Source: a virus. Taken from it: a DNA stretch of 46,643 nucleotides. The position numbers were made by a program, and so were the translations under genes. Under the pieces are notes generated by a model, which saw only the letters and a program-made list of their open reading frames with translations, ran no database searches and had not been told where the DNA came from. The stretch spans positions 1 through 46,643 of IMG/VR virus record IMGVR_UViG_3300044946_000123; one strand, given 5' to 3'. Each line of letters begins with the position of its first letter. Position 1 is the stretch's first letter. Positions 25,536 to 46,643 of the stretch are shown piece after piece.

Positions 25536-26396
25536 GTGAGTTTTTGGCATTGGATCATCGACGACCTAAATTTGACGCACTCAGAGAAATTTGTGTCTCT
25601 CATTTTAGTTAGACACCAGAACAAGGAAGGGAAGTGCTGGCCATCGATTGAACGCATCTCGGCGCTTTCAGGTTTTAACGTGCGTCACGTCAGGCGCATC
25701 CTGCGGTCCCTGGAAAAGAAGGGTTATCTGGACTCAATAAGCCGTACCGGGGCAACCACAGTGTACAGGCTTCGCGAGACAGCCTCGCAAATGAAACTCT
25801 TAGACCTCCCAACGAAAACGGTTGTCGGCGACTGCTATCTCTGCCGAGGGCCTATCTACGCTGGAGAGTCAACAGAGATCGATCACGTCATCCCGCGAAG
25901 CGCTGGAGGTGGTAATCATTTTTCAAACAAAAGACGTGTGCACCGTAACTGCAATCAAATCAAAGGACAATACCGTTTAAGGGAGGACATTTCCGACAAG
26001 GATAGATTTCCACAGGGGGCGGACATTTCCGACGGGGGGGGCGGACATTTCGCTTTGGGTGCAGGTACCGGAAATGTCCCCCAGAAGCCGGTCAATGAAG
26101 CCGTAAAAGATAAAACCCCGCGCGATGACCCTGCGCGGCTCTCCCCCCACCTTTCCGAGCAGGAGCAAAGAAAAAAAATCGAAGGCCGCGAGCGCCGAGT
26201 GATGCAGGAAGTCGAGGGCCTGCGGGAGTCTATGGCTGGCATGGGGCCTGGCTGCGAGCCTGGAATTACGCGGGGCGTCCAGCAGATCGCCGCAAAGATG
26301 AAAACCTTAGAGCCGCTCTCCGAGGCCGAATACGAGCGCCGAAAGCAGACGCAGCAAGCCGCCCTTAGAGTGAAATTTCCAGAGGCGTTTCGATGA
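25536..26396 (+). CDS. Replication-initiator-like winged-helix protein with embedded HNH motif
   Basis: A 286-residue protein from a GTG start. Residues 1-80 are a winged-helix domain of the HTH_36 type (CWPSIERISALSGFNVRHVR, then RILRSLEKKGYLDSI), the kind seen in phage replication initiators. Residues 98-145 are an HNH motif: C100 and C103, IDHVIPRSAGG with H117, and HRNCNQIKG with C139. Residues 155-180 are Gly-rich, as in the GGG linkers of O-like proteins. The C-terminus is charged and helical. The gene holds four iteron-like repeats (25985-26079). The HNH may be an inserted homing module; nuclease activity is inferred. Confidence 0.7.
   Translation: MSFWHWIIDDLNLTHSEKFVSLILVRHQNKEGKCWPSIERISALSGFNVRHVRRILRSLEKKGYLDSISRTGATTVYRLRETASQMKLLDLPTKTVVGDCYLCRGPIYAGESTEIDHVIPRSAGGGNHFSNKRRVHRNCNQIKGQYRLREDISDKDRFPQGADISDGGGGHFALGAGTGNVPQKPVNEAVKDKTPRDDPARLSPHLSEQEQRKKIEGRERRVMQEVEGLRESMAGMGPGCEPGITRGVQQIAAKMKTLEPLSEAEYERRKQTQQAALRVKFPEAFR
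25985..26079. repeat. Iteron-like repeats, probable replication origin
   Basis: GGACATTTCCG occurs at 25985-25995 and 26021-26031 (both extended to GGACATTTCCGAC), with a partial GGACATTTCG at 26043-26052 and an inverted CGGAAATGTCC at 26069-26079. Four copies in 95 bases inside the initiator-like gene match the lambda O arrangement, where origin iterons lie within the initiator gene. Direct protein-level repeats could explain part of it, but the inverted copy cannot be explained by coding. Confidence 0.6.
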
Positions 26397-33846: not shown

Positions 33847-34274
33847 GCGTTTTTCGTTCCGCCATTCGTTTTCGGGATTACGACTTGGCCCTCCGCGGTG
33901 ACGCGCGCCGGCGACGTGGCCCCGCCTTCTGCGGAAGTCGTCACCGACAGCTTGTTGATCGTCGCTTGGTAGATGATCTCGTGAAACGTGAATTGCTGAA
34001 ACCAGTGCCAAGCACCGATGATCAACGCGGCGGTCGTAGGAATGGCGAGAATGAGGACGTGCGAGCCGTCCGCATTGCGATTCCACGTGTACCCGATGCC
34101 GATGGAGACGAAAAACGCGACCAGCAAGCTGGCGGCGCGGCTGGCGGCCTTCTGTCCATGCTGCAGGAGCGGAAACCAGCTCGAGCTTTTGAGTTTCTGC
34201 ATAATCCAGACGGTCGCGGCTGCCGCGGCCACTTGTGTCGATAGGACGTTGGAGACAGCGTTCGGGTCAGGCAT
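33843..34274 (-). CDS. Putative holin / small membrane protein
   Basis: A 143-residue protein with AAAGGA upstream. Three hydrophobic segments are visible: residues 13-26 (TQVAAAAATVWIMQ), about 48-63 (LLVAFFVSIGIGYTW) and 72-92 (HVLILAIPTTAALIIGAWHW), then a polar C-terminal domain of about 45 residues. Position at the end of the late block, after the transglycosylase cluster, supports a holin or lysis-accessory role. It is longer than typical holins, so a different membrane role is possible. Confidence 0.5.
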   Translation of the reverse strand: MPDPNAVSNVLSTQVAAAAATVWIMQKLKSSSWFPLLQHGQKAASRAASLLVAFFVSIGIGYTWNRNADGSHVLILAIPTTAALIIGAWHWFQQFTFHEIIYQATINKLSVTTSAEGGATSPARVTAEGQVVIPKTNGGTKNA

Positions 34275-34890
34275 TTTCTTTTTCCTTTTTGTCCAGCCGT
34301 ACGATTTCGATTTGCTTTCCGTCTAGATACAGCCCATAAGTGCTTCCGGGCGGGAAATCCTCATCCAAGGCCGGAAGCTTATCCGGGTCGACTTCTTCGT
34401 CTTGCAGAATATGGGGCGCGGCGAGGACTTGATGACCATGGAAAATCGCGGCCAAGTTTTCGCCAGCTTTGCGCCGCTTCAGGATGTCTTTCAGTTCCGG
34501 CCTGAATTGATCGAGCCAATCCTGAAACGGTTCTCCGCCGGGCGGTTTTTCCTCGGGGTATTTGATGTACCGCTTGCGCATCGGAATCGTTTCCGACTCT
34601 TTTTTGCCCGCCATGTCGCCCACGTCCCAGGTTTCCAGCTCCGGAGTGGTTTCGGTTTCCATCTCCCAGGGCATGGCCTTGGCAATGAGGTCCATGGACT
34701 GTTCCGCGCGTGGAAGGTCGGAGGAAATCAGGCTGTGAATATCGTGGTCCTTGAGGATTTTGACGATGCCAGGGAGGAGCGGCTTCGCGGCGTCTTTGTC
34801 AATGCCGACGCGCATCAGGCCACGAGAGATTTTGCGTTCGTTGAGAGTGCTGGCGAAATGACGAATGGCGATCAGGTCTGGACGGCGCAG
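34267..34890 (-). CDS. Histidine phosphatase (phosphoglycerate mutase-like), non-canonical start
   Basis: About 207 residues if begun at the CTG at 34890. The family's catalytic RHxxxT motif is present as IRHFAST (R10, H11, T15), followed by SSDLPRAEQSMDLI (the SxxxRxxQT motif, with Arg and Gln), WDVGDMAGKK and the second catalytic His in IFHGHQ. The first ATG (34815) would cut off the RH motif, and no ATG, GTG or TTG lies upstream in frame before the stop near 34943. The CTG follows directly the stop of the upstream zinc-ribbon gene (TAAGCTG), so reinitiation, a frameshift fusion or a sequencing error must be considered. Substrate unknown. Confidence 0.7.
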   Translation of the reverse strand: MRRPDLIAIRHFASTLNERKISRGLMRVGIDKDAAKPLLPGIVKILKDHDIHSLISSDLPRAEQSMDLIAKAMPWEMETETTPELETWDVGDMAGKKESETIPMRKRYIKYPEEKPPGGEPFQDWLDQFRPELKDILKRRKAGENLAAIFHGHQVLAAPHILQDEEVDPDKLPALDEDFPPGSTYGLYLDGKQIEIVRLDKKEKENA

Positions 34891-41314: not shown

Positions 41315-41920
41315 TTATGAACTCTTACCGGCCGGGTTGGTAATCATTTTGACGATCTGTGAAGCATCCGTCAGGACCGAAGGCCGTGCTTGCATGTCCT
41401 GAGTCGCCTGCCCGTACATGTTCGTTGCAGCCCCGGTGTTGATTCCGTAAAGCTGCGAGGCGTCCTGAATGGCCTGCTGCTGGCTGTCGAGCTTCTGTTT
41501 GCCGATGGTGACTTCGGCGTTGGTCGCGGCGGTAGCGTCCGCGGCGGCCTTGTCCTGCGCGAGTTTATCGGCCGAGGCGTAGAACATCGCGTCGTTGCCG
41601 GTTGCCCCGGCACGCTGCGCGGCGCTGAATTTGGCGGCGTCGAAGGCACTGTTTGCCGTGTCCATTCCGGAGCGACGAATTGCTGCTGCGGTCGTCGGAT
41701 CGAAGCCGGGATTGGCGAGTTGGCCTTCGATTGCCGTTGTCGCGCCCGCGCCGAGTGGTTTTGCGGCCGCTTGGTAACCTGCCGCTTGCTGGTTTGATAG
41801 TGCCTGCTGTTGCGCTGCGCCTCTCGCGGCGAGCTCCAAGGGTCCATCGTAGGCGTAGGATTCGCGCTCAAGAACCGCCCCGGAGTCCATGTCCATCACA
41901 ATTTTTGTGTTAATTCTCAT
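41315..41920 (-). CDS. Internal virion / tail accessory protein
   Basis: A 201-residue protein whose ATG at 41920 overlaps the previous stop (ATGA). The opening MRINTKIVMDMDSGAVLERE then SYAYDGPLELA is the ExxxIVxDMxTGxVLExxSYxYxGPVxLA signature found in a conserved protein of podovirus tail modules. The remainder is an Ala/Gln-rich helical bundle. Expected in the virion interior or tail hub. Confidence 0.7.
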   Translation of the reverse strand: MRINTKIVMDMDSGAVLERESYAYDGPLELAARGAAQQQALSNQQAAGYQAAAKPLGAGATTAIEGQLANPGFDPTTAAAIRRSGMDTANSAFDAAKFSAAQRAGATGNDAMFYASADKLAQDKAAADATAATNAEVTIGKQKLDSQQQAIQDASQLYGINTGAATNMYGQATQDMQARPSVLTDASQIVKMITNPAGKSS

Positions 41921-42321
41921 CGGCGCCCCAATTCTTTCGCATAGCAAGTCCAAAGCGGGCGTTTCCACCCTAGTTTCATCAGTCGCCGCCCAAAAGATTT
42001 TTCAATCTGCGGCGGAAGCCACGCATGCAGGTCGGATAATCCGCCTGTTCTGTACGCGATTTCGCAGCCAGCCTCATGCAGCGCGAGAAAATTTCTGTAT
42101 CGCTCACTCGGCGTGCCTGCCTTCTGGTCGAAGAATCCATAGACTTCGGCAGTCAGGTGCGCGAATGCCGCGTTGACTATTTTCCCGTCCTGCTCGCCCA
42201 CGAGCTTGATGTGCCACAAAGGATCGCCACTGAAGTCGGGCATCTCGAAAGCGAAGCCCTGTGCCTGGTAGAGACGTTCGATTTGCGACAAATCATCTGG
42301 ACGATAAAAGCGTGTTTGCAT
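41917..42321 (-). CDS. GNAT-like acetyltransferase fold protein
   Basis: A 134-residue protein with the order of a GNAT domain: RPDDLSQIERLYQAQGFAFE, strands HIKLVGEQDGKIVNAAFAHL and LTAEVYGFF, then a C-terminal helix and strand (FGRRLMKLGWKRPLWTCYA). The usual R/Q-x-x-G-x-G/A acetyl-CoA loop is not clear, so activity may be lost. GNAT-like genes are common in the tail modules of related phages. Role unknown. Confidence 0.55.
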   Translation of the reverse strand: MQTRFYRPDDLSQIERLYQAQGFAFEMPDFSGDPLWHIKLVGEQDGKIVNAAFAHLTAEVYGFFDQKAGTPSERYRNFLALHEAGCEIAYRTGGLSDLHAWLPPQIEKSFGRRLMKLGWKRPLWTCYAKELGRR

Positions 42322-42326
42322 ACAAT
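42321..42326 (+). promoter_or_regulatory. Possible -10 box for the Acb2-like gene
   Basis: TACAAT lies 19 bases before the start codon of the + strand Acb2-like gene, preceded by TTTGCA. A good -35 is not evident at 17-18 bases. It lies over the start codon of the GNAT-like gene on the other strand. Confidence 0.35.
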
Positions 42327-42344
42327 TCCGCGCGGAGGTACCAC

Positions 42345-42593
42345 ATGCCCGAACTGAATGAAACCCAGATCGAGAACTGGTTCCAGTACCACGCTCCCAA
42401 CGCCAATCAGAGCGCCAAGTACGAAGCGATCCGCAAAGCGGCCCGCGAGCTGGCGCTGACTATCTTCAAAAACACGCCGGCAGGCGCGGACCAGTCCGAC
42501 GCGATCCGCAGCGTGCGCAATTCCGCGATGACCGCGAACCAAGCCATCGCGGTAGAGCTTGGCGGCTCGGGCGGCGCTAGCGCAGGGCGTTAA
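42345..42593 (+). CDS. acb2: Acb2-like anti-CBASS cyclic-nucleotide sponge (putative)
   Basis: An 82-residue protein with GGAGG six bases before the ATG. Residues 9-69 follow the Acb2/Tad1 helical-hairpin signature: IENWFQYHAPN (with Y15 and H16), QSAKYEAIRKAARELAL (Y26, R30), then PAGADQSDAIRSVRNSAMTA and NQAIAVE, corresponding to the family's FxYHxP..DQ..xYxxIRxxAxxLAxxIxxxxPxSxExSxAIxxxxxAxMxANxxIA. Acb2 proteins form hexamers that bind cyclic di- and trinucleotides and so blunt CBASS signalling. The gene is alone on the + strand within the tail operon, a moron position. Call based on motif memory; binding is inferred. Confidence 0.7.
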   Translation: MPELNETQIENWFQYHAPNANQSAKYEAIRKAARELALTIFKNTPAGADQSDAIRSVRNSAMTANQAIAVELGGSGGASAGR

Positions 42594-42783
42594 GCGGCTT
42601 CACTTTTTTCTGCGTGGTAGCGGTTTGCGCGTTCACCGGCTGAGTCACATTGCCGGCGGCGGGAGTCGTGTTCGCGTTGATGTACGCGACCGTGGCTTCG
42701 AGCGCGTCGGCAATGTGCGTGTCGGTGGCGCGAATTCTTTCGATTTGAGGTATCTGTAGTTTTTTTCCTACCGGAGCACTCAT
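42577..42783 (-). CDS. Hypothetical small protein
   Basis: A 68-residue protein, MSAPVGKKLQIPQIERIRAT then DTHIADALEATVAYINANTT and a Thr/Gln/Lys-rich tail. Its ATG overlaps the TGA of the nozzle gene (TGATG). Its 3' end overlaps the convergent Acb2-like gene by 17 bases. Probably a virion or tail accessory peptide. Confidence 0.6.
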   Translation of the reverse strand: MSAPVGKKLQIPQIERIRATDTHIADALEATVAYINANTTPAAGNVTQPVNAQTATTQKKVKPLNALR

Positions 42784-45700
42784 CAGTAGACGTTCCCTCT
42801 CACTGGCGACCACGGATCGGGCACGATGCTGAACACGATCTTCTCGCACTGCGCCCAGCTTCCCGCCGCATTTCCCGCGTTTGAAAACGTGAAGGAACAG
42901 CGCTCGGCGAGGATGTTGGTTGTGAATTCAAACTCCCGCGAAAGCCGCGTCACCGTTCCCGCCGCGCCAAGAATCAAATCCGGCATGAGGTACTGCGAAA
43001 AAGTGAACTGCATCGGGTTGAGGATCTGCTGAATCGGCACGGTGCCGTTGAAACTTGCGTCGGCGGAGTTTTGAACGATGGCCTGCACGTCGATGCCATT
43101 CGTCAAGCCGTGCCCGGCGGCGCAAGTTACCGTGGTGACGCCGTTCACGCGCGAGATGCCTGTGATCGCGTTCGAGACGTTCGGATCGACGAGCTGGAAG
43201 TTCTGATTCGGGACCGGCGTGATGTTTCCCATCGGCTGCGGCGAAATTCCCATCGCGCCAGAGCCTTTGACGTAGCCGGCGAGGTATACATAGAGCTTGC
43301 GATGCGACTTAATTTGGAGCGCCTGCTCTTCCATGTGCGAGGGCGTGAAATAGGTCGAGTAGCTCCAGGGAATTCCCGCGCCGTCATCGCTCTTGTTTGC
43401 GTCGAGAAGATCGTAAATCTTCCCGGTATTGGATGGCCCAATGCCCGTAAGCGTGGGCGCAGCGCCGTTGCCGATGAAGGTATGCGCCGTGCCGTCGGTT
43501 CGCTCGATGAGCGCGGCCGAATTCGAGGAAATGTTCCAAGCTGGACACCACTTCGGCGCGTTGCCAATCGCCAGAATTTTCCCAGTGTAGGGGCTGTACT
43601 TCACCGACCAGTGATCGGCGACTTCCTGCGCGGTGTCCATGCCCACAAAATCAAAATAGAAAATGATGTTCGGCGAGGTGGCGCCGTTGATGGGCGCACC
43701 GATGAGGGCGCGCTTGTTCACGCGGTCGACGAGCACCCAAATGGTGTAGCCAAAAGCCCAATTAATCGAGTTCCAAGTCGGTTTCCCGGAATTGGACGAG
43801 TCGGACTGTATTTCCTGGCCAACTTTGACCGGCTCCGCGCCCCAGAAGACGTAAGGCCCGGCGCGATTGGCGGCGATGCCCCAATCCTCTCCAACGTCGA
43901 GCGCGTTTATGCCGCAGGCTCCGATGGCGTTCGAGACGCTTGTGATGGTCCAGGATGAGGGCTCGTTTGCGCCGTCATCTTGCGTGACATACCAAGCATT
44001 GTCCTTCAGGATGTATAGCTTTTCGCGCAACACAAACGCGTTGCGAATTGTTCCGCCGTCCTGGAAGAAGGGTTGCAGCACTCCGGTCAACTGATCGAAA
44101 CTTTCCGGCTGGCCGGCGTACGATCCGCGCATGGTGGACGTGAGATAAGGCGTGTTGGTAGGGAAAATTTGAATCGAATCGACGAGAAACACGCCATTGT
44201 TGTTTGGCGTGCCGTCGGCGTAAACCTGCAGGAGCAGGTCTGCGGGAATCACGCCGAGCGCTGAGGTCAGGATCGCACTAAAAACTTGGTATTTGGCCGT
44301 TGTTTGGGCCGCCTGCACGCTCAAGCCGCTCGTCGTGAATGCTCCGGTCGTCGATTGCAGATTGATGTGGAACGTGCCTTGCGTGAGCACGCCAGCAGAG
44401 GCCACGCGTGCGCGCACGGTGTAGGACGTTTTTGTTTTGAGGATGACATTGTTCAAATAGTCTTGAAACGCCGACTGCAAAATCTGTCCGCGCACTGCTG
44501 TCGCACCGTCTCCGGTGATCGAGTAAGCATCGCCGAAAGCCACGGAGAACGCACCCGCGAGAGCGGAGTTGCCGCCGGCCACAAAAGTGCCCGCTGTCCA
44601 GCCAAGCGGAACCGCTCCAGCGCCCGGTTGCGTATAAAAGACTTGGATGCCGATGTAGTCGCAGTTTGCCGTTTGGCCCACGCTGTCCGAGTTCAGAGCC
44701 GATATTTCGGCTCCAAAAGTGGCGCTATTGATGTCTGACGGCGTCCACGTCGTTCCCCAAAGATCGCTAGAGCTTCCGTACGTCTGAGGTGCGACCGCGT
44801 TGGTCCAGGCATTCCCGTTCGCATGGTTCGTGCCCGCCGTAAAACCGCCTTTCACGATTCGCACAAACTGGTCTGTGATTTTGTTGTTTACTGAGGCGCT
44901 CACGTACGCCAGCACCACTATTCCTAAAATTGTAGCGTTCGCGGGAATAGGGAAGCCGTAGCCGTTGCCCTCGATGAAGCCGCTACTTGCGCCGGCTGCT
45001 AAAGAGACCGATGCCAGCGCTCCATCGAGTGCGAAGATGTTATTTGGATTTGCCCACGGGACCGGCGGTTGAGTTATGGATGCCGTCGGGCTGTTTGGCC
45101 CCGCACTCGTCGATGTCGGCGTGCCGCCGAATCCGCCATCGAACGGCAAATTGATGAAATTCGGGACGAGGTTCCTGCCGCCCCAGGTAAACAGCCGCGT
45201 AGCGTAGGAAACGACGCCGGCGCACTCTTCAAGTTCGAGGAGGCTGAGGAGGTATTGCACATTCGAGCCGTTCCCGAGAATTACGTCGGAGAAATCGACG
45301 GTCAACGTGGTGGTCACGTTGTCGTTGATGACCATGTTGCCGCTCGTGAGGATGTTGCTGGCATTGGTCGTAAAGAAAAACACGGCGCCGCCGGCTGTTG
45401 TGAAGCAAACGACGCGGGCAATGACGTTCGGAGGGCCTACCGGAATGTTTGTGAGGCTGACTTTTTTGTTGCCGGCTGCGGTCCAGGTAAAAGGCGGCGC
45501 AGGCTTGGTCCAGAATCCCGCGCGAGTGATGAAAAACACGCTGACCAGGTGCACGCCGGCGGGAATGTTGCCTGCGGCGGCGGAATCGACAGCCGTCGGA
45601 GGCGCGCCGGGACCGACCTGGCTCAGTCGATCGTAAAAAGTTCCGTCAAATTGCGCCGGATCGCTCGTTCCAAACTGTCCGTCCGAAACTGCGATGTACT

Positions 45701-46061
45701 CTTTGCCGTAAGCTGTCGCCGATTTCGCGTACGAGCCTGCGGGAATCGGAATCGAATTGATGCCGAGCGTGAGCGCGCCTTGCGGGAATTCCTGATTGAT
45801 GGACCCGGTAGCATCGAGGAAGAGAAAGCGCTTGTTGCGCGCCTGATCGACGAAAGTTTTCTGGTAGTTGATGGTCGGGTTGCCGGCCAGCGCGGCGAAA
45901 ACGCCGCCGCCGAGGCCTGGGCGCGTCCGCCAACAGCCGAGAGGGAACTGAACATCCTGGCATTTAGGCGAAGCGCCGGCGGGAAGGTCTGACGGCGCGA
46001 TCTCGGACACCATGCCCGAGAAGACCTCGAGCGGGAGATCTATTGTGCCGGCTGTAGACAT
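42783..46061 (-). CDS. Tail nozzle / gp12-like tail tube protein
   Basis: A 1092-residue beta-rich protein. The N-terminus (SGMVSEIAPSDLPAGASPKC, QDVQFPLGCWRTRPGLGGG) is the LPxxASPxxxNVxFxxGxVxxRPG signature of podoviral tail tube B (nozzle) proteins, which follows a beta-propeller region with strands such as SQVGPGAPPTAV and AGVHLVSVFFITRAG. The large middle and C-terminus contain carbohydrate-binding-like and Ig-like segments. Gene order adaptor-then-nozzle is the podoviral norm. It probably closes the tail tube and contacts the spike or fibre proteins. Confidence 0.75.
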   Translation of the reverse strand: MSTAGTIDLPLEVFSGMVSEIAPSDLPAGASPKCQDVQFPLGCWRTRPGLGGGVFAALAGNPTINYQKTFVDQARNKRFLFLDATGSINQEFPQGALTLGINSIPIPAGSYAKSATAYGKEYIAVSDGQFGTSDPAQFDGTFYDRLSQVGPGAPPTAVDSAAAGNIPAGVHLVSVFFITRAGFWTKPAPPFTWTAAGNKKVSLTNIPVGPPNVIARVVCFTTAGGAVFFFTTNASNILTSGNMVINDNVTTTLTVDFSDVILGNGSNVQYLLSLLELEECAGVVSYATRLFTWGGRNLVPNFINLPFDGGFGGTPTSTSAGPNSPTASITQPPVPWANPNNIFALDGALASVSLAAGASSGFIEGNGYGFPIPANATILGIVVLAYVSASVNNKITDQFVRIVKGGFTAGTNHANGNAWTNAVAPQTYGSSSDLWGTTWTPSDINSATFGAEISALNSDSVGQTANCDYIGIQVFYTQPGAGAVPLGWTAGTFVAGGNSALAGAFSVAFGDAYSITGDGATAVRGQILQSAFQDYLNNVILKTKTSYTVRARVASAGVLTQGTFHINLQSTTGAFTTSGLSVQAAQTTAKYQVFSAILTSALGVIPADLLLQVYADGTPNNNGVFLVDSIQIFPTNTPYLTSTMRGSYAGQPESFDQLTGVLQPFFQDGGTIRNAFVLREKLYILKDNAWYVTQDDGANEPSSWTITSVSNAIGACGINALDVGEDWGIAANRAGPYVFWGAEPVKVGQEIQSDSSNSGKPTWNSINWAFGYTIWVLVDRVNKRALIGAPINGATSPNIIFYFDFVGMDTAQEVADHWSVKYSPYTGKILAIGNAPKWCPAWNISSNSAALIERTDGTAHTFIGNGAAPTLTGIGPSNTGKIYDLLDANKSDDGAGIPWSYSTYFTPSHMEEQALQIKSHRKLYVYLAGYVKGSGAMGISPQPMGNITPVPNQNFQLVDPNVSNAITGISRVNGVTTVTCAAGHGLTNGIDVQAIVQNSADASFNGTVPIQQILNPMQFTFSQYLMPDLILGAAGTVTRLSREFEFTTNILAERCSFTFSNAGNAAGSWAQCEKIVFSIVPDPWSPVRGNVY

Positions 46062-46064
46062 AAA

Positions 46065-46643
46065 TCAGAGGAACGGATAGGAGCGATTGCGCGAGCTGTA
46101 CGGTCTCCGCCTTCTCGTTTGGTTCTGCATCTGGTGGATGACAGTGTCTTTCATGGATTCCAGTGCGTCGTCGCCCTGCGTTTTGTAATTGGCGGCGAGC
46201 GGCGAGCCGCGCGATAGGCCAGCCATGGCCGCGGTCAAGAGCGCCATCGTGTTTTGGCCGTCGCGCAAGAGCACGGAAGCCACTGGGCTCGTGACGTCGC
46301 CGAGTGTGGCCTGGTAGCGCAAACGAATTTGTGTGTCCTGAGTTGCGCCGATGAAGTACAGGCCGTCCATACGCCATTCCCAATACATGAGCTGAGTGCT
46401 CTGCGGCTGCGATGGCAGGCCCGCCTCGTCGGTCATGTCGGTCATTTCCTGGAAATCGTCCGTCGAGCCGGATGCGCGTTCCGACACCTTGAGCGGCACG
46501 AGCAAGTCGACGGGAAGCTGGTTTGGCGGCGGTGTCGCGTCGGTGATGCTGACTTGCGCCGAGGCATCCACAGCGGCAATCGCGGGAACGATGAGCAGGA
46601 CGTTGTCCTGGATGTAGGTCGCGCTTTTGATGTTGCCGAGCGA
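46065..46643 (-). CDS. Head-tail adaptor protein, C-terminal part (gene begins at 274-1)
   Basis: Contains the C-terminal part of the adaptor gene, open to the window edge in the same frame as 1-274 (127 bases are shared with the other end). Visible features are the beta-rich middle (PNQLPVDLLVPLKVSERASG), LMYWEWRMDGLYFIGATQDT, IRLRYQATLGDVTSP and a basic tail (QNQTRRRRPYSSRNRS). It overlaps no other gene and ends three bases before the nozzle gene's ATG. The family usually docks on the portal ring and carries the nozzle. Confidence 0.7.
   Translation of the reverse strand, partial: SLGNIKSATYIQDNVLLIVPAIAAVDASAQVSITDATPPPNQLPVDLLVPLKVSERASGSTDDFQEMTDMTDEAGLPSQPQSTQLMYWEWRMDGLYFIGATQDTQIRLRYQATLGDVTSPVASVLLRDGQNTMALLTAAMAGLSRGSPLAANYKTQGDDALESMKDTVIHQMQNQTRRRRPYSSRNRSYPFL
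46517..46643. repeat. Terminal direct repeat (right copy)
   Basis: Exact copy of 1-127, with no mismatch seen. The sequence before it continues the adaptor gene in frame with the start of the window, which shows circular closure. Confidence 0.9.

Follow-up and report, generated by a model that had tools for sequence, protein, structure and literature searches.

A putative Acb2-type sponge gene of a divergent clade in a variable slot of a phage late gene cluster

A small gene on the strand opposite to its neighbors

The window, i.e., the whole stretch of 46,643 nucleotides analyzed here, carries a small plus-strand gene, referred to below as acb2-like, within a late cluster that runs on the minus strand and whose long genes on either side of it are all encoded on that strand. 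The gene, its putative signals and the domain that it encodes are located as follows:

42345..42593, plus strand: acb2-like gene, 82 aa, F-x-Y-H-x-P clade of the Acb2/Tad1 hairpin family (Pfam PF24729, phrog_1454, tblastn relatives in phages)
42387..42551, plus strand: Acb2/Tad1 hairpin domain, residues 15-69 (best Pfam stretch 15-69; predicted helices 20-43 and 48-71)
42334..42339, plus strand: ribosome binding site GGAGGT (from the sequence)
42298..42326, plus strand: weak sigma-70-like site TGGACG-17-TACAAT, possible promoter (consensus match only)

The frame opens at ATG 42345 and ends, after 82 codons, with the stop codon at 42591-42593; the first-pass annotation of this DNA, made from sequence alone, thus described both the length of the product and its strand correctly. 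It had also claimed a strong ribosome site, and GGAGGT is indeed situated 5 nt before the ATG, GGAGG being so spaced at 13 of the 1181 ATGs in the window. The GC content of the frame by codon position (0.60/0.49/0.78) resembles that of the capsid and terminase genes, while its identity by codon position to a relative encoded by the related phage locus L120 (51% identity) is 0.60/0.78/0.40, which indicates selection on the protein. The frame runs opposite to the cluster, and one of the frames antisense to it is likewise open, as would suit a chance antisense ORF; however, the Pfam profile match described below, the ribosome site, the GC content at third positions, a tblastn match to a Tunturiibacter phage protein (E 3e-12) and the codon-position conservation leave this explanation a vanishingly small probability. 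It was rejected, the conservation data already refuting a chance origin, and 42345-42593 is a real, coding gene.

The possible -10 box of the first-pass annotation exists as TACAAT (42321-42326), which is preceded at a distance of 17 nt by TGGACG (42298-42303). The two elements match the consensus at 9 of 12 positions and end 18 bases 5' of the ATG, but chance alone would yield 0.4 sites of this quality in the 1.4 kb scanned, making this a weak candidate promoter. We infer that the gene may possess a promoter of its own. A terminator search directly 3' of the gene returned no convincing candidate.

The gene as cargo in a variable slot

Three minus-strand genes define the slot in which the acb2-like gene is found:

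42577..42783, minus strand: short gene that precedes the slot (68 aa, start codon ATG at 42783), apparently corresponding, in shortened form, to a gene of 180-325 aa located after the tail-like gene in relatives (gene order in loci L119, L120 and L150; N-terminal similarity to the L119 protein)
41917..42321, minus strand: conserved 134-aa gene after the slot, without assigned function (homologues at the matching place in L119, L120 and L150)
42783..46061, minus strand: gene for a 1092-aa virion-type protein, conserved in kin and serving as synteny anchor (homologues in relatives)

Relatives of the phage were identified via paired alignment of the 1092-aa protein; scans of viral contigs with the 134-aa neighbor and with a 1179-aa neighbor returned no relatives, and the capsid and a 626-aa protein had no match among annotated phages. 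In a prophage-like stretch of genome G041 (L150/L151), which encodes a capsid of 61% identity, a homologue of the 1092-aa protein (34-52%) and homologues of the 134-aa and a 217-aa gene, the slot is closed: a 325-aa gene is followed after 4 bp by the 134-aa gene, with no acb2 between them, and no acb2 homologue was found elsewhere in G041. The slot of L120 holds an ORF with weak similarity to HTH_3 (E 1.7e-4, slightly below the cut-off), and that of L119 a 75-aa ORF. L120 has its own acb2 relative, i.e., the 51% homologue mentioned above, about 8.6 kb past the tail-like gene, among a series of small genes that share one strand. Since syntenic relatives have either an empty slot or other small ORFs in it, and since the L120 homologue is located elsewhere, sequence comparison provides good support for the acb2-like gene being a moron, i.e., cargo in a variable slot. 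The end of the 42577..42783 gene overlaps that of the acb2-like gene by 17 bp, and the arrival of the latter may have cut the former short.

The first-pass annotation had placed this moron in a tail operon. Its moron status is borne out by the syntenic relatives, while the word ‘tail’ is based on the order of the genes and the appearance of the 1092-aa protein, as no neighbor of the gene yielded a Pfam or PHROG tail assignment; ‘late virion-gene cluster’ is the safer term. The 134-aa neighbor has no Pfam match, and its designation as an acetyltransferase was dropped for want of Pfam support.

The record as a whole is probably a complete genome, circular or circularly permuted, of about 46.5 kb, since its ends are identical over 127 bp (1-127 and 46517-46643) and the point where they would join lies within a gene (MPVGPSSAY..., running on into the 192-aa ORF at 46065-46643). 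Elsewhere in the window, 25536-26396 (plus strand) encodes a 286-aa protein in which a replication-initiator-like HTH_36 domain is joined to an HNH nuclease motif, and the late cluster includes a histidine-phosphatase family gene (34267-34815, minus strand; PF00300, E 2.6e-13) that is homologous to a gene of the syntenic G041 prophage.

Family membership and predicted fold

A profile search against the Acb2/Tad1 family had been proposed as a check on the first-pass assignment, and the window protein matches PF24729 (Acb2/Tad1 hairpin) with 33.9 bits and an E value of 3.6e-8, above the curated cut-off of 27 bits. The same profile is matched by all twelve proteins of a first clade alignment (the window protein, that of Tunturi_1, and mycobacteriophage, Paenibacillus and Lactococcus phage proteins) as well as by ten of ten classical Acb2 proteins, T4 Vs.4 and PaMx33 gp24 among them. 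In PHROG the protein matches phrog_1454 (E 6e-15), and families 1454 and 31113, both at about 1e-14, are listed there as being of unknown function; PADLOC and NCBIfam searches returned no match. A viral-contig scan with the window protein alone yielded no relatives, and a scan with the clade-alignment profile yielded at least 367 for the F-x-Y-H-x-P clade. The annotated phage homologue with the highest identity is that of Tunturi_1.

Direct comparison with classical Acb2 is less uniform. The profile of the first clade alignment matches that of classical Acb2 along 66 columns (87% probability, E 3.8e-6); counting against the relationship, the match is weak (6.8% probability) for a clade profile that is deeper but narrower, and plain pairwise scores between the window protein and classical Acb2 remain at shuffle level. 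Given these weak pairwise scores, membership rests on profiles and fold rather than on pairwise identity. Of note, several Paenibacillus and Brevibacillus phage records label Acb2/Tad1 hairpin proteins as ‘putative phosphomannomutase’ (e.g., L009 592-807 and L012 592-795), apparently a propagated misannotation.

The AlphaFold2 model, built with 60 sequences, contains helices at residues 6-12, 20-43 and 48-71 and a disordered tail after residue 73 (mean pLDDT 82, rising to 97-98 over residues 31-60). The Acb2 protomer consists of a short helix and two long antiparallel helices (PMC10419184), a layout which the predicted protomer of the window protein matches; the helical hairpin claimed in the first-pass annotation is thus upheld by both the Pfam match and the model. 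Among viral structure models, 14 of the 15 best matches to this model bear the name Acb2/Tad1 hairpin, and the remaining one is unnamed. Against solved structures no match was significant, the top query TM-score being that of 7uq2, T4 Vs.4 with cGAMP (0.57, E 5.1). A single-sequence search of solved structures returned no Acb2 and clade profile A2 nothing relevant in the PDB, while clade profile A1 gave a borderline best match to 9ptq, ‘Acb2 homolog 43’ (E 0.015), an entry with six chains which aligns at the motif Phe and His and along the hairpin but has Thr at the motif Tyr position. Taken together, profiles and predicted fold support the assignment of the window protein to the Acb2/Tad1 hairpin family as a divergent member.

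The candidate ligand pocket

Two residues of the putative pocket have counterparts in classical Acb2:

42387..42389, plus strand: codon of Y15, counterpart of the ligand-stacking Tyr (T4 Y8, PaMx33 Y11) (profile alignments; kept in 63 of 67 relatives)
42432..42434, plus strand: codon of R30, counterpart of T4 K23 and PaMx33 K26, 15 residues past the Tyr (profile alignments; invariant in 67 relatives)

The spacing of 15 residues between the Tyr and the basic residue is identical in the window protein, T4 Vs.4 and PaMx33 gp24, and K26 of the latter is reported to contact the ligand. Other pocket positions have changed: N23, R85 and P90 (PaMx33 numbering), which are invariant in ten classical Acb2 proteins, correspond to E27, Q66 and E71, and T4 F82 corresponds to A69. 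In T4 Acb2, dinucleotide binding is disrupted by Y8A, and F82 forms a stacking contact with the ligand (PMC12657218), while in a T4-like phage a T68-to-Met change reduces binding (PMC12657230); the T68 position is occupied by R55, which is invariant in the clade. The requested comparison of pocket positions therefore gives a divided result, with the stacking Tyr and the basic residue retained and the counterparts of N23, R85, P90 and F82 altered. As F82 is itself not invariant among classical Acb2 proteins, these losses point to a divergent pocket and not to exclusion from the fold family, and they suggest that the ligand may differ from that of classical Acb2.

The clade has invariant residues of its own, namely R30, D49, R55, R58 and A69, all of which lie outside the patterns used to search for relatives. 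Constancy at residues 8-16 and 59-66 was partly imposed by those patterns, and it is within the second of these stretches that the window protein departs from the 67 relatives compared, with N59 (Glu in 66 of 67), A61 (Val in all) and Q66 (Ala in all); it also differs from its nearest relatives by a Gly/Ser/Ala tail.

The inferred host and its defenses

Family- and phylum-level genome searches placed the best matches of the terminase (53%) and of the 1092-aa protein (46-55%, best pieces) in G128 and G041, two genomes taken from the family to which Acidicapsa dinghuensis belongs, Acidobacteriaceae according to NCBI; a terminase scan of genome contigs returned nothing. The host of Tunturi_1 is, judged by its name, a soil isolate of the Acidobacteriota. 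These similarities suggest that the phage probably infects a host in or near the Acidobacteriaceae.

It had been predicted that hosts of this phage carry CBASS or related signaling defenses. Hosts with CBASS exist but form a minority in the inferred host family, where SMODS, a cyclase domain of CBASS, was above cut-off in 5 of 150 genomes, many of them incomplete MAGs, and AGS_C in one, while SMODS was found in one of the twelve genomes carrying an F-x-Y-H-x-P clade homologue. The prediction is thus possible without being specifically supported, and since cargo genes need not match the defenses of one host, the low count neither proves nor refutes the target. A Cas10 search of the same family was discarded as evidence, as its matches (32 of 150) were mostly weak, with three strong ones, and an E. 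coli control was also positive; the weak matches are probably GGDEF domains. A separate observation concerns contig G008:C99 (L121-L123) of an Acidobacteria genome that also has a clade homologue, in which three SMODS-type cyclase frames occur in a row within 2.5 kb.

Proposed function

Proteins of the Acb2/Tad1 family are known to soak up the molecules with which bacteria signal an antiviral alarm. We consider it likely that the acb2-like gene, as an accessory gene, encodes an Acb2-type sponge which binds a cyclic (oligo)nucleotide alarm signal, and sequence and model suggest that this sponge gene is probably functional. According to this proposal, a phage whose closest kin reside as prophages in Acidobacteriaceae-family genomes would carry, inserted on the opposite strand in a variable slot between two late genes, a gene for a small protein that is produced during infection and probably forms a hexamer; this protein would bind the cyclic (oligo)nucleotide signal of a host defense such as CBASS and, without degrading it, keep it from the cell-killing effector. 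Hexamer formation, ligand binding, sequestration and an anti-CBASS effect are all inferred. Of the first-pass description as an Acb2-like anti-CBASS sponge, family and predicted fold hold, while the classical pocket is kept only in part (Y15, R30), and from sequence and model ‘anti-CBASS’ is a best guess.

That label would name the wrong target if the protein were a sponge of Acb2 fold tuned to another signal, such as the gcADPR of Thoeris, the trinucleotides common to CBASS and type III CRISPR, or some as yet undescribed nucleotide. The altered pocket and the clade's own invariant residues would fit this explanation, as would the rarity of SMODS in the inferred host family and among clade-carrying genomes, and the related Tad1 binds both gcADPR and trinucleotides (review PMC12043709). 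However, the retention of Y15 and R30 of the dinucleotide pocket and an Acb2 architecture devoid of the Tad1 beta-sheet part argue against it, and we regard it as unlikely, if still worth reckoning with. A wider version, which we judge slightly more doubtful, is that the F-x-Y-H-x-P clade forms a separate branch of sponges with the Acb2 fold whose pocket has been rebuilt, the classical Arg, Pro and Phe having been lost and constant His16, Arg55, Arg58 and Asn65 gained; such sponges would sequester a signal outside the known Acb2/Tad1 range and would point to a signaling defense that is common among soil Acidobacteria and further hosts that have received little study.

It is improbable that the protein is a hairpin of Acb2 ancestry which is no longer a sponge and plays another role in the phage cycle, such as virion assembly or lysis timing. 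Its gene does sit among virion genes, a clade member in an Acidicapsa prophage (L105) lies between two late-region genes, and we know of no assayed member of the clade. Nevertheless, clade genes occupy unrelated places, i.e., an early-type operon (Tunturi_1, L120), sites beside recombinase or sigma factor genes (Paenibacillus phages) and sites beside tRNA genes (mycobacteriophages); the gene is absent from a syntenic prophage that retains the virion genes; and Y15 and R30 are kept.

An Acb2-type sponge, if confirmed in this role, would extend such counter-defense to a phage lineage of Acidobacteriaceae-type hosts. It would belong to a large and widespread hairpin clade which, in the annotated phage records examined, is filed as hypothetical or ‘phosphomannomutase’, and the activity of one clade member would bear on hundreds of phage genes, indicating whether they encode signal sponges and for which signal.

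Comparison with known systems

The window protein shares 43-50% identity and common motifs with other F-x-Y-H-x-P clade proteins (Tunturi_1 gp101, mycobacteriophage ScoobyDoobyDoo gp210, and Paenibacillus and Lactococcus 1706 proteins; phrog_1454), while its gene differs from theirs in its unusual location, opposite in strand to the late cluster around it. With Acb2 of PaMx33 (gp24) and T4 (Vs.4) it has in common PF24729, its size, a short N-terminal helix followed by a long helical hairpin, and a Tyr with a basic residue at +15; it differs in the shuffle-level pairwise identity and in the changed counterparts of N23/R85/P90 and T4 F82. The acb2 gene of PaMx33 also directly follows a structural gene on the other strand, but is succeeded by further same-strand genes, whereas the window gene stands alone. 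Tad1 (Thoeris anti-defense 1) has, by Pfam definition, a similar C-terminal helical hairpin, preceded by an N-terminal antiparallel beta-sheet domain (PMC12043709). Assignment to Tad1 was rejected, as the 82-aa window protein is modeled as all-helical, with no strand and hence no beta-sheet domain, and it is the layout of Acb2 that its predicted fold resembles.
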